In this document: positions 2,064-5,273 of the stretch, piece after piece | How positions within the stretch are numbered: position 1 is the stretch's first letter | How the letters are laid out: each line of letters starts with the position of its first letter | From: Deltaproteobacteria bacterium | Lineage (GTDB): Bacteria > Myxococcota_A > UBA9160 > SZUA-336 | DNA length: 5,413 bases | Direction: 5' to 3' | Assembly (NCBI GenBank): GCA_030624945.1 | Contig: JAUXJB010000127.1 | Span: 1-5,413, forward strand | The notes under the pieces: model-generated | Seen by the model: the letters and a program-made list of their open reading frames with translations, nothing else | Told to the model about the DNA's origin: nothing | Database searches by the model: none | Translations under genes and position numbers: made by a program

Positions 2064-2714
2064 ATGGGGTTTTCCGCGGTGATATTCGACCTCGGTGGCG
2101 TCGTGCTGGGTTCGCCTTTGCACGCCATAGCCCGCTACGAACGGAGAATCGACATCCCGGGAGGGTTCATCAACCGCGTGATCGTCGACGCGGGTGCGGA
2201 AGGCGCCTGGTCCCGCCTCGAGCGCGGAGAGATCCTGGTCGACCGCTTCTATGACGAGTTCGATCGCGAGTGTGCGGAGGCGGGAAACGCGATCTCGGCT
2301 CGGGACATGATGGCGGGAATTGCGGAGAGTGGCGGTCCGCGGCCGCAGATGATCGCGGCGATCCAAACCATTCGCGAGCGGGGGTTGCGCGTTGCGGCAC
2401 TCACGAACAACTGGGCATCGGAGAACCGAGGCGATGGGGGGAGCGGGGGGCTCCGGCGGTTGTTTCACGTGTTCGTCGAGTCCAGCGTCGTCGGGCTGAG
2501 CAAGCCCGATCCCAGGATCTATCGTCACGTCTGCTCCGAGCTCGAGGTGGAGCCCCGCGCGGCCGTCTTTCTGGACGACATCGGACGCAATCTGAAGACG
2601 GCGCGAGAGCTCGGCATGAGGACGATCAAGGTCGAAGATCCGGATCTGGCGCTCGGCGAGCTAGAGACCGCCCTCGGGTTCAAGCTGCGATCGGAGCCCC
2701 GGCTGCCGAGCTAG
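2064..2714 (+). CDS. HAD-IA family hydrolase (ACAD10 / epoxide hydrolase N-terminal type)
   Basis: A 216-residue haloacid dehalogenase superfamily protein, probably a cytosolic phosphatase for a small metabolite; the substrate cannot be told from sequence. Motif I is VIFDLGGVVL (6-15) with Asp9 as the likely nucleophile. The usual second Asp (DxD) is Gly11, as in other 'DLGGV/DLGNV' members such as the YihX type. A helical C1 cap follows at about 20-90, with the family-typical GAWSRLERGEI (47-57). Motif II is ALTNNW (112-117), with Thr114 in the Ser/Thr position. Motif III is GLSKPDPRIY (144-153), with Lys147. Motif IV is VFLDDIGRNLKTARELGMRT (168-187), with Asp171-Asp172. Length is normal for the subfamily. 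I chose the ATG at 2064 because motif I follows at once; the frame is open for 70 codons upstream, but that part lies over nadK and its leader. No Shine-Dalgarno is visible. The last 54 bp overlap the 3' end of the convergent methyltransferase gene. Confidence 0.9.
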   Translation: MGFSAVIFDLGGVVLGSPLHAIARYERRIDIPGGFINRVIVDAGAEGAWSRLERGEILVDRFYDEFDRECAEAGNAISARDMMAGIAESGGPRPQMIAAIQTIRERGLRVAALTNNWASENRGDGGSGGLRRLFHVFVESSVVGLSKPDPRIYRHVCSELEVEPRAAVFLDDIGRNLKTARELGMRTIKVEDPDLALGELETALGFKLRSEPRLPS

Positions 2715-3476
2715 AGGCGCATTTCTCAGCAGGCGGTAGCGGTTCAGCGCGCCGCCTCGACCATCGCTGGCGTAAGAGTCCAGCGGCTCCAGGTCGATGT
2801 GTGCCAGCAGGTCGCGCTCTTCCGCGGGGTCTACCCAGTGGCAGTAGCGGATCGGCCCACTGCCGCGGTCTCCCCAGCGAAGCAATGTGTCTCCCGGCTC
2901 CAGCTGGCGGGGATCGATGGGCCACGGCGAGTGCCGATTGTATTCGGGCACGCCGACCTGCTTGCCCGCGAAGCGGGCGTGCGCACCGAAGTCCCAGAAC
3001 GCGAGTGCGAGAAGGCCCCGCGGCGCAACGCGCTGGGCGAGTCGTTCCAGCAACTCGCGGCGCCGCGCTTTTCCCGGGATGTGGTGCAGGATGCCGAACG
3101 CGGCCACGCAATCGTAGGTCTCGGACGTCCCCGCGGCGGGCAGGGGCTCCTCGACCAGGTCCCGTTGCTCGAATTCCGCCGCCACGCGGGGGATGCTTCT
3201 GCCGCGAGCAGCAGCCAACAAGCTGGCGCTCGCGTCGATCCCCCGGTACACAAGAGGGCGCGTCAGAGCATCGGATAGAAAGCGCGCGAACCGGGCGTTT
3301 CCGCAGCCGATGTCCAGGACGGAGAGGGAGCTCGGACACCCCGCCTGTGCGAGATGCGGCAGGATACGCCGCCAGCCGGGCCAGGGATCGCCACGCGTTT
3401 CCTCGAAACTTCTGGCGTGGTCGCGGTAGAAGGTGCGGTTCAGGGCGTTGAGGGCGAGCGCGGTTTCTTCGTTCAC
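2661..3476 (-). CDS. Class I SAM methyltransferase, Trm9/ALKBH8-like (predicted tRNA wobble-uridine methyltransferase)
   Basis: A 271-residue Rossmann-fold SAM-dependent methyltransferase. Motif I is VLDIGCGNARF (53-63), the acidic SAM-ribose position is GIDAS (79-83), and motif IV with following helix is CVAAFGILHHIPG (123-135), then RVAPRGLLALAFWDFG (149-164). Several features recall eukaryotic Trm9/ALKBH8, which methylate cm5U34 of tRNA to mcm5U34. The N-terminus NRTFYRDHARSFEETRGDPW (13-32) parallels 'VY..IA.HFS.TR..PWP'. GCGN and 'ILHH' parallel 'IGCGNGKYL' and 'VIHHF'. The W after the motif after IV (FWDF) parallels 'YVWA'. The C-terminus GDTLLRW...IRYCHW...LDSYASDGRGGALNRYRLL parallels 'DVLVPW...HRYYHVF...SYYDQGNWCVIL'. 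It lacks the AlkB and RRM domains of ALKBH8. The start is the GTG at 3476, the only start that fits the family N-terminus; extending to 3692 would run over elp3. It has no clear Shine-Dalgarno. It is divergent from elp3, which makes the presumed substrate cm5U34. The alternative is a methyltransferase on another substrate. The fold is certain, the subfamily likely, and the substrate inferred. Confidence 0.85.
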   Translation of the reverse strand: MNEETALALNALNRTFYRDHARSFEETRGDPWPGWRRILPHLAQAGCPSSLSVLDIGCGNARFARFLSDALTRPLVYRGIDASASLLAAARGRSIPRVAAEFEQRDLVEEPLPAAGTSETYDCVAAFGILHHIPGKARRRELLERLAQRVAPRGLLALAFWDFGAHARFAGKQVGVPEYNRHSPWPIDPRQLEPGDTLLRWGDRGSGPIRYCHWVDPAEERDLLAHIDLEPLDSYASDGRGGALNRYRLLRNAPLARQPGLRSQLEPEGGL

Positions 3477-3500
3477 GTGCGATCTGGGAGGCCGGTGGAA
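3477..3500. promoter_or_regulatory. 24-bp divergent start region between the methyltransferase gene and elp3, with elp3 ribosome-binding site
   Basis: Only 24 bp separate the GTG (3476, -) from the ATG of elp3 (3501, +). GGGAG at 3486-3490 is a plausible ribosome-binding site for elp3, with a longish 10-nt spacer, and it supports the ATG at 3501. On the minus strand the same bases read CTCCC, so the methyltransferase has no ribosome-binding site here. There is no room for a promoter, so promoters for both genes must reach into the opposite coding sequence. I found no convincing -35/-10 pair in the flanks. Confidence 0.45.
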
Positions 3501-5273
3501 ATGAAGACGGGCGGAGCCGCCCGACAAAGCTTTGATCCCCAGCGCTACGAGCGCGATCTGCTCTGTATCCTCTCCGAGGTTCGACCGCTTCCCGCGGTCT
3601 CGCAGCGCGATCTGCAGAGAATCTTGCGCAAGTACCCGCGCGACGGCAAGGGCTTCTTCTCGCGCTCCGAGCTGATCGCGGGCTTCCGCCACCTCGCGCG
3701 AGGGCAGGGCTGGGACGATGAGGCGAGCTTCGTCCGGAAGCTCCGCAAACGTCGCATACGTACACTTAGTGGTGTTACCCCCGTTACCGTCCTGACCAAA
3801 CCGTTCCCCTGTCCCGGTCGGTGCATCTTCTGTCCCAGCGACGTGCGCATGCCCAAGAGCTATCTGTCGTTAGAGCCGGGTGCCCAGCGAGCTGCCCAGC
3901 AGGGCTTCGATCCCTATTTGCAGACGCGCGTCCGGCTGCAGGCGTATCACGAGCTCGGCCATCCCACCGACAAGATCGAGCTGATCGTTCTCGGCGGCAC
4001 GTGGTCGTTCTATCCCGAGCCGTATCGCGTCTGGTTCATCAAGCGCTGCCTCGATGCGCTGAACGACTTCTCGGGGGCGGATCCGGCTACCGCTCCGGAG
4101 CACGCCCCTCTCCGCGACCCGGGGGAACCCTCCGAATCGGTGCACGGAGGTCTGGGAGGTGCCTCCTACAACCAGGTCGTCTCCAGCCACCTGCGGCGCC
4201 GTCTCCAGGGCGCGCTCGTCGGCGACTGGGAGCGGGCGGAGTGGGAGGATCTGGAGGCCACACAACGCCGGAACGAAGGGGCGAGGTGTCGGGCGGTCGG
4301 CATCTCGCTCGAGACGCGTCCGGATCAGGTCACGCGCGAGGAGGTGGTAACGCTCCGCCGTCTCGGTGCCACCAAGGTCCAGATCGGGGTGCAGAGCCTT
4401 CAGGACAGCGTGCTGGCCCTGAACGAGCGCGGTCACGATGTGTCCCTCTCGCGCAGGGCGATCGGCCTTCTACGTGGCGCCGGCTTCAAGATCCACGTGC
4501 ACTGGATGCCGAATCTCTACGGCTCTACCCCACAGGCGGATGTGGAGGATTTCGATCGCCTCTTCGACGACCCGGCCATCCGACCCGACGAGCTGAAGAT
4601 CTACCCGTGCAGCCTGATCGAGAGCGCCGAGCTGATGCGTCACTACCGAGCGGGGTCCTGGCGTCCGTATGCGCGCGAGGAGCTCATCGAGATTCTCGAG
4701 CACGCGCTCCTGCGCACTCCCGCCTATTGCCGGGTGACGCGCGTGATCCGGGACATCTCCGCCAGCGACATCGTGGTGGGCAACCGGACCGCCAATCTGC
4801 GGGAGGTCGTGGAGGAGCGGCTCGCGGCGCAGGGTCGGCAGCTGCAGGAGATCCGGAGTCGAGAGATCCGCTCGGGCGAGGTCGACGACTCGCGCGCGCT
4901 GCTCGAGGAGAGAGCTACCTACGAGACGTCGGTCGGTCTTGAGCGCTTCCTGACCGTCACGACCGCGGGCGATCGGCTGCTGGGCTTTCTGCGCCTGATG
5001 CTGCCGAAGCAGCCGGCGTTCATCGAGGAGATTCGCGAGAGCGCGATGATTCGGGAGGTCCACGTCTACGGGGAGGTGGCCGGGATCGGCGAGCCCGCGG
5101 GCGCGCGCTCGCAGCACAGGGGTTTCGGTCGCCGTCTCGTCGCCCGCGCGGCGGAGCTCGCCAGGGGCGCCGGCTACAGCGATCTCGCCGTCATCTCCGC
5201 GATCGGCACCCGGTCCTACTACGCGCGTCTAGGATTCACGCGCGGCCGACTCTACCAGCACCTGCGGTTATAG
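3501..5273 (+). CDS. elp3: Elp3: tRNA U34 carboxymethyltransferase (radical SAM/GNAT enzyme)
   Basis: Catalyses carboxymethylation of wobble uridine (cm5U34) in tRNA from acetyl-CoA and SAM. It has 590 residues, full length with some excess over the roughly 550 of eukaryotic Elp3. Order: an N-terminal basic helical region (about 1-90, probably tRNA-binding), ending LRKRRIRTLSGVTPVTVLTK, equivalent to 'KPVRTASGIAVVAVM' in yeast. The radical SAM cluster is Cys104-x3-Cys108-x2-Cys111 (CPGRCIFCP), followed by RMPKSYLSLEPGAQRA, IELIVLGGTWSFYP (159-172), GISLETRPDQVT, TKVQIGVQS (291-299), RGHDVS and DELKIYPC (363-370). A linker follows with RSREI (452-456). The C-terminal GNAT domain has REVHVYG (518-524), the acetyl-CoA loop QHRGFG (538-543) and GTRSYYARLGF (569-579), with Tyr573-Tyr574. 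The ATG at 3501 is preceded by GGGAG and followed by FDPQRYERDLL, a normal bacterial Elp3 beginning; an ATG at 3354 would overlap the methyltransferase. Stand-alone Elp3 without Elp1/2/4-6 is known in bacteria and archaea. Odd points are an insert at about 190-262 and no CxCxxC at the linker. Confidence 0.96.
   Translation: MKTGGAARQSFDPQRYERDLLCILSEVRPLPAVSQRDLQRILRKYPRDGKGFFSRSELIAGFRHLARGQGWDDEASFVRKLRKRRIRTLSGVTPVTVLTKPFPCPGRCIFCPSDVRMPKSYLSLEPGAQRAAQQGFDPYLQTRVRLQAYHELGHPTDKIELIVLGGTWSFYPEPYRVWFIKRCLDALNDFSGADPATAPEHAPLRDPGEPSESVHGGLGGASYNQVVSSHLRRRLQGALVGDWERAEWEDLEATQRRNEGARCRAVGISLETRPDQVTREEVVTLRRLGATKVQIGVQSLQDSVLALNERGHDVSLSRRAIGLLRGAGFKIHVHWMPNLYGSTPQADVEDFDRLFDDPAIRPDELKIYPCSLIESAELMRHYRAGSWRPYAREELIEILEHALLRTPAYCRVTRVIRDISASDIVVGNRTANLREVVEERLAAQGRQLQEIRSREIRSGEVDDSRALLEERATYETSVGLERFLTVTTAGDRLLGFLRLMLPKQPAFIEEIRESAMIREVHVYGEVAGIGEPAGARSQHRGFGRRLVARAAELARGAGYSDLAVISAIGTRSYYARLGFTRGRLYQHLRL

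Follow-up and report, generated by a model that had tools for sequence, protein, structure and literature searches.

A divergent elp3–methyltransferase gene pair as a probable two-enzyme route to mcm5U34 in bacteria

In yeast, Trm9-Trm112 acts on the 5-carboxymethyluridine at the tRNA wobble position (cm5U34) that is made by Elp3 (PMC6367351), and a Trm9-type methyltransferase domain is contained in ALKBH8 (PMC5372719). For archaea, an Elp3 and Trm9 pathway was predicted in 2008, with the two genes clustered in Sulfolobus solfataricus (PMC2584109), and a 2020 review gives 5-methoxycarbonylmethyluridine (mcm5U) as documented in Haloferax volcanii (PMC7663514). Some bacteria are known to have Elp3. 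According to the same review, direct evidence of cm5U derivatives was lacking for Dehalococcoides (PMC7663514). The usual account is that wobble-uridine chemistry splits by domain, with 5-carboxymethylaminomethyluridine (cmnm5U) or 5-methylaminomethyluridine (mnm5U) in bacteria and mcm5U in eukaryotes (PMC5400242, for the thiolated forms). Here we analyzed a stretch of 5,413 nucleotides from a Deltaproteobacteria bacterium (contig JAUXJB010000127.1; the whole stretch is called the window), whose source assembly is 1.78 Mb in 301 contigs and 73% complete. The window carries an elp3 gene and, head to head with it, a gene for a Trm9-like class I methyltransferase that uses S-adenosylmethionine (SAM). 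The two enzymes quite probably form a pathway turning tRNA U34 into mcm5U34 in place of the MnmE/MnmG system, which was not detected in this lineage.

The initial annotation had placed both genes at the correct coordinates, in opposite directions and 24 bp apart. The methyltransferase gene occupies 2661..3476 on the reverse strand, from a GTG start (3476) to the stop (2661), and encodes 271 residues; the open reading frame, Pfam matches, a profile search of PDB, and active-site residues support its assignment. The elp3 gene occupies 3501..5273 on the forward strand, from an ATG start (3501) to the stop (5273), and encodes 590 residues with radical SAM and GNAT/KAT domains, as supported by TIGR01211 and PDB matches to Elp3. 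The divergent gap between the start codons (3477..3500) is 24 bp on the chosen starts, although the elp3 frame continues without a stop upstream as far as another ATG, at 3354. A GGGAGG ribosome-binding site for elp3 lies at 3486-3491, 9 nucleotides upstream of the ATG, and no clear ribosome-binding site was seen upstream of the methyltransferase GTG.

Association of the methyltransferase gene with elp3 and the wobble-uridine systems

The link between the elp3 and methyltransferase genes is real. We inspected 59 related genomes, including the source genome, and counted the methyltransferase at a best E value of at most 1.3e-20 (the next genome stood at 2.9e-8). Both genes were found in 40 genomes (Elp3 over the family cut-off in 39), the methyltransferase only in three, Elp3 only in none, and neither in 16. 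One of the three methyltransferase-only genomes (G020) has an Elp3 cut by a contig end beside the methyltransferase, and the other two, G050 and G058, have a completeness of 74% and 78%, respectively. The initial annotation had named a conserved neighborhood with elp3 as a test, and this was found: of the 40 relatives with both genes, the source genome included, 36 have them head to head at a distance of no more than 600 bp, a recurrence that places the layout beyond chance. Two of these, G051 and G038, have only a methyltransferase fragment next to Elp3, because the contig ends there. Among the remaining four relatives, two pairs are about 1.4-1.5 kb apart, one is 6 kb apart, and one is on different contigs.

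The same association was seen in a phylum sample of 114 genomes (113 requested at a completeness of at least 90%, plus the source genome). The methyltransferase was present in 16 genomes and Elp3 over the cut-off in 15, all of which carry the methyltransferase, the lone difference being G020; a weak Elp3 match of 74.6 bits in the MnmG-bearing G163 was left out of this count. The divergent arrangement was also seen in one genome from outside the class, G169. We also scanned named genomes, keeping the best 80 of 298 relatives; these 80 loci came mostly from Chloroflexi/Anaerolineae and Myxococcota-type metagenome-assembled genomes. Elp3 was within the fetched stretch in 51 of these 80 loci, head to head in 49. 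For the other 31 named genomes (29 without Elp3 in the stretch, plus L057 and L063), an Elp3 match was found in 30, over the cut-off in 28, and overall the genome has an Elp3 match for 79 of the best 80 loci. No third conserved neighbor was found, the next commonest cluster occurring in 13 of the best 80 loci. Records titled Pleurocapsa (L049), Spirochaeta (L102), and Bacteroidetes (L106) also carry the methyltransferase family; these titles may be misassigned.

The two genes might have no functional link and simply be neighbors by descent in one lineage, travelling together accidentally. Many of the genomes are indeed related and the spacing of the pair varies. However, records named Anaerolineae, Acidobacteriota, and Myxococcales all contain the pair, Elp3 is far more frequent near the methyltransferase than the next neighbor cluster (51 against 13 of the best 80 loci), 30 of the 31 genomes with the genes apart or not on one stretch keep both, and G169 has the same arrangement outside the class. 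An accidental association is therefore highly improbable.

The initial annotation had suggested checking for mnmE and mnmG, and neither was found among the 59 relatives (MnmG 0/59; MnmE helical domain 0/59, MnmE being searched in relatives only), although each search was positive for 9 of the 14 controls. MnmG was also found in none of the 49 named methyltransferase-bearing genomes searched. In the phylum sample, MnmG is present in 66 of 114 genomes, and no methyltransferase carrier (16 genomes) is among these 66 (Fisher p = 2e-7 with shared descent ignored). For 16 of the relatives, which include incomplete genomes, no match to Elp3, the methyltransferase, or MnmG was found, and 15 of these 16 have an MnmA match. 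MnmA is the 2-thiolase of the wobble uridine. It was found in the source genome and in 54 of the 59 relatives, and with MnmG and MnmE not found, U34 is probably still thiolated while its C5 position is modified by Elp3.

We also considered Trm112 as an obligate partner of the methyltransferase. The Trm112 model PF03966, a weak model of 40 positions, matched in 35 of the 59 relatives, in 21 of 43 with the methyltransferase and in 14 of 16 without it, so that an obligate partnership is not supported. The bacterial methyltransferase probably does not need Trm112. The source genome itself has a Trm112/YcaR-type match (G000:C182:479-610, 46.9 bits) on a contig other than that of the pair.

Identity of the methyltransferase and Elp3

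According to a review, tRNA affinity and turnover of yeast Trm9 suffer strongly from each of the mutations R29A, H115A, R241A, Y243A, and N271A (PMC5372719). We aligned the window protein with yeast Trm9 and counted these positions in 109 rows, made up of relatives L010-L038 and named loci L039-L118, which overlap in part and so are not 109 independent genomes. The equivalent of R29, in the TR..PWP motif, is R28 (codon at 3393..3395, reverse strand, as are all methyltransferase codons here), an Arg in 109/109 rows. H131-H132 (3081..3086) correspond to H115-H116, with the H115 equivalent kept in 109/109. R210-Y211-C212-H213 (RYCH; 2838..2849) correspond to R241-Y242-Y243-H244, with Arg in 109/109, Cys in 105/109, and His in 107/109, and N245 (2742..2744) corresponds to N271, an Asn in 109/109. 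The equivalents of R29, H115, R241, and N271 are complete in 29/29 relatives' rows and 80/80 named-locus rows, whereas each of the eight methyltransferases used as controls (E. coli CmoM, UbiG, CmoA, and CmoB, and four from the source genome) lacks at least one of the four. The active site is more telling than profile scores for a Trm9 identity. All landmarks listed in the initial annotation are present as well (TR..PWP, IGCGN, ILHH, FW after motif IV, DTLLRW, RYCH, and SYASDG).

General searches gave a less specific picture. In Pfam, the methyltransferase matches five models, all for methyltransferases in general, and in NCBIfam no model was matched above its cut-off. Its seven nearest database relatives, self excluded, share 59-65% identity over 92-93% of its length, and this close alignment indicates a real protein. 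Most of the listed relatives are named by their sources only as SAM-dependent methyltransferase, and 7 of 120 carry the name tRNA (uracil-5-)-methyltransferase TRM9, presumably an automatic label. The likeness to Trm9 and ALKBH8 in the initial annotation held for Trm9, by profile and active site, and failed for ALKBH8; only methyltransferase models matched in Pfam, with neither AlkB nor RRM among them.

When a 42-sequence family profile (A1) was run against the whole of PDB, Yarrowia Trm9 (5cm2_Z) came first of 251, with 46.9 bits and an E value of 1.8e-11, the next match scoring 41.8 bits; Trm9 is thus the best solved-structure match of the family profile, in agreement with the initial annotation. 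An hhalign comparison of A1 with a profile of 23 fungal Trm9 sequences (A2), the single family compared, aligned 217 columns at 98.7% probability, the C-terminal part included. Among selected proteins, A1 gave 13 fungal Trm9 sequences 47.0-61.5 bits, UbiG 36.3, CmoA 30.6, CmoM 27.1, and CmoB 20.5. In the reverse direction, the fungal Trm9 profile gave the window protein 25.3 bits, the source-genome methyltransferase L001 17.3 bits, and L002 10.7 bits, and did not match any E. coli control of the four. Profile scores alone lean to Trm9 without settling the identity.

These comparisons bear on two other roles for the enzyme. The methyltransferase may esterify or alkylate a different wobble nucleoside, such as uridine 5-oxyacetic acid (cmo5U34) as does E. 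coli CmoM, or a later product of the Elp3 step, and the end product would then not be mcm5U. CmoM, which forms the methyl ester mcmo5U34, also esterifies a U34 carboxylate with SAM. However, no NCBIfam CmoM-type match was obtained at E <= 1e-3, the A1 score of CmoM is well below the Trm9 range given above, CmoM has no equivalents of H115 and N271, and the genes track Elp3, the cm5U maker, almost perfectly. We consider a different nucleoside unlikely. The enzyme may instead be tied to Elp3 yet have another target, for example another tRNA position, a ribosomal protein, or a translation factor, its likeness to Trm9 being that of class I methyltransferases in general. This is still less likely and quite improbable, since the lid and active-site residues R210, H213, and N245, which do not belong to the SAM-binding core, agree with Trm9 and vary little or not at all, and Trm9 ranks first in the profile search of PDB. 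The preferred role remains that of a Trm9-type enzyme acting on the Elp3 product.

Several results weigh against this role or the association behind it. The fifth Trm9 residue, Y243, is not kept, with Cys in 105 of 109 rows and in the window protein, Val in three rows, and Ser in one, and yeast Trm9 and the window protein are 24% identical over 187 aligned positions. A single-sequence search of PDB ranks dTDP-sugar N,N-dimethyltransferases first (E = 6.3e-7) and Trm9 14th of 17 (E = 0.023). The unrelated L001 scores 52.2 bits with A1, about the level of fungal Trm9; it has no equivalents of R241 and N271. The fungal Trm9 profile picks up 17 of 18 other bacterial members weakly (12.8-44.9 bits), and P0107 was not listed at E <= 10. 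The structural comparison proposed in the initial annotation did not favor Trm9: Foldseek ranks a C-methyltransferase first and Trm9 (5cm2) 28th (E = 2.1e-10), the top rows all being class I, and VIA-align gives protein N-terminal methyltransferases as best, with Trm9 not among the 50 rows listed. A tree in which the bacterial family and fungal Trm9 were set beside eight other methyltransferases did not resolve the branch, the outgroups being too distant and the branches long. As for the association, the Fisher p values for Elp3 with the methyltransferase (9e-12 in the relatives and 8e-18 in the phylum sample) ignore shared descent, and the phylum sample shares 15 of its 16 methyltransferase carriers with the set of 59 relatives, so that G169 and the negative genomes are what it newly adds. 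Loss of MnmG does not require the pair, because 32 of the 114 phylum genomes (for example G005, G013, G016, G019, G021, G023, G024, and G032) gave no match to MnmG, Elp3, or the methyltransferase. No nucleoside data for bacteria with the pair were found in the literature searched.

Pfam, the predicted model (predicted local distance difference test score of 93.0), and the structural matches all agree on a class I SAM methyltransferase fold. We take this fold, which many enzymes share, to be too common to discriminate between families, and the Trm9 active-site residues carry the case.

The window Elp3 passed the Elp3 family model of NCBIfam (TIGR01211) with 456.7 bits against a cut-off of 350, in line with the full-length protein claimed by the initial annotation, and matched solved Elp3 structures in PDB, among them 6iaz and Dehalococcoides mccartyi 5l7j. 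The cysteines of the radical-SAM CxxxCxxC motif are C104, C108, and C111 (3810..3833, forward strand), and in an alignment of 44 bacterial Elp3 sequences (the window and 43 relatives) they are Cys in 43/44, 44/44, and 44/44 rows, respectively. The key residues of D. mccartyi Elp3 are K77, K193, E386, and Y441 (PMC6367351); by a hand count on the 5l7j alignment, they correspond to K158, K330, E519, and Y573 of the window protein. The window Elp3 looks intact in sequence, with the cluster cysteines and the acetyl-CoA/KAT key residues kept. About 56 extra residues at about 190-247 have no counterpart in the Elp3 structures 6iaz and 5l7j (D. mccartyi). A few positions of this insert are conserved among relatives.

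Elsewhere in the window, a HAD-type phosphatase gene lies at about 2064-2714 on the forward strand (TIGR02247, 152 bits), tail to tail with the methyltransferase gene, the two ends overlapping by 54 bp. A NAD kinase gene of the PRK04761 type lies at 1148-1984 on the reverse strand (390.5 bits, cut-off 211). A protein at 3-1100 on the forward strand, open at the window start, has a TraF_2 match (65 bits) and a PorV match below its cut-off. No RNA families were found in the window at gathering scores.

Proposed pathway and comparison with described systems

In the proposed pathway, Elp3 would first carboxymethylate U34 at C5 by radical SAM chemistry with acetyl-CoA, giving cm5U34, and would do so alone, like archaeal Elp3. 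The methyltransferase would then esterify the carboxylate with SAM to give mcm5U34, and its R28, H131, R210, and N245 would have the substrate-holding roles of yeast Trm9 R29, H115, R241, and N271. MnmA would probably add the 2-thio group in tRNA-Lys, tRNA-Glu, and tRNA-Gln, yielding 5-methoxycarbonylmethyl-2-thiouridine (mcm5s2U34). Most of the computable checks named in the initial annotation came out in its favor, and its interpretation is supported overall, with mcm5U as the predicted product. We lean toward a wider view for the Anaerolineae, the Myxococcota-type class, and some Acidobacteriota, in which cmnm5U may be replaced by mcm5(s2)U through Elp3 and a stand-alone Trm9 with a Cys in its lid, without Elongator subunits or Trm112.

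The predicted chemistry is known; its second step was not found described for bacteria in the literature searched, and the partner needs appear to differ, as does the apparent displacement of the standard bacterial system. The initial annotation had not been aware of an established description of such a pair. For bacteria, none was found in the literature searched, with subscription papers mostly outside its scope, but an archaeal Elp3 and Trm9 pathway was already predicted in 2008 (PMC2584109). If the proposal is true, the domain split of wobble-uridine chemistry would fail for several bacterial groups, and a function would be assigned to a methyltransferase family with mostly generic labels. 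The eukaryotic pathway would gain a minimal two-enzyme bacterial counterpart that could be produced in E. coli and studied without the other Elongator subunits or Trm112. It would also raise the question of which system is older.

Compared with MnmE-MnmG, which makes cmnm5U34, the pair would likewise modify C5 of bacterial U34, probably in the same tRNAs, but with other enzymes and to another product, and MnmG was found in no searched genome with the methyltransferase. CmoM shares the R, W, R, and H positions with the window protein and differs in the two missing equivalents and the low A1 score. ALKBH8 has AlkB and RRM domains, unlike the window protein. D. mccartyi Elp3 is likewise a bacterial Elp3, with K77, K193, E386, and Y441 in common with the window Elp3; its N-terminus is much shorter (PMC7663514, PMC6367351), whereas about 75-80 residues precede the conserved core of the window Elp3. 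The archaeal system is alike in combining Elp3 without other Elongator subunits and a Trm9 homologue (PMC2584109). None of the four archaeal controls gave a match to MnmG, so that archaea appear to have no MnmG to replace. Yeast Trm9 (YML014W) is a class I methyltransferase whose R29, H115, R241, N271, H244, and D270 all have equivalents in the window protein, which differs from it by having no long insert before the RYYH motif, by a Cys in place of Y243, and by its low overall identity. Unlike Trm9-Trm112, the bacterial enzyme does not track Trm112 and is often encoded beside elp3.

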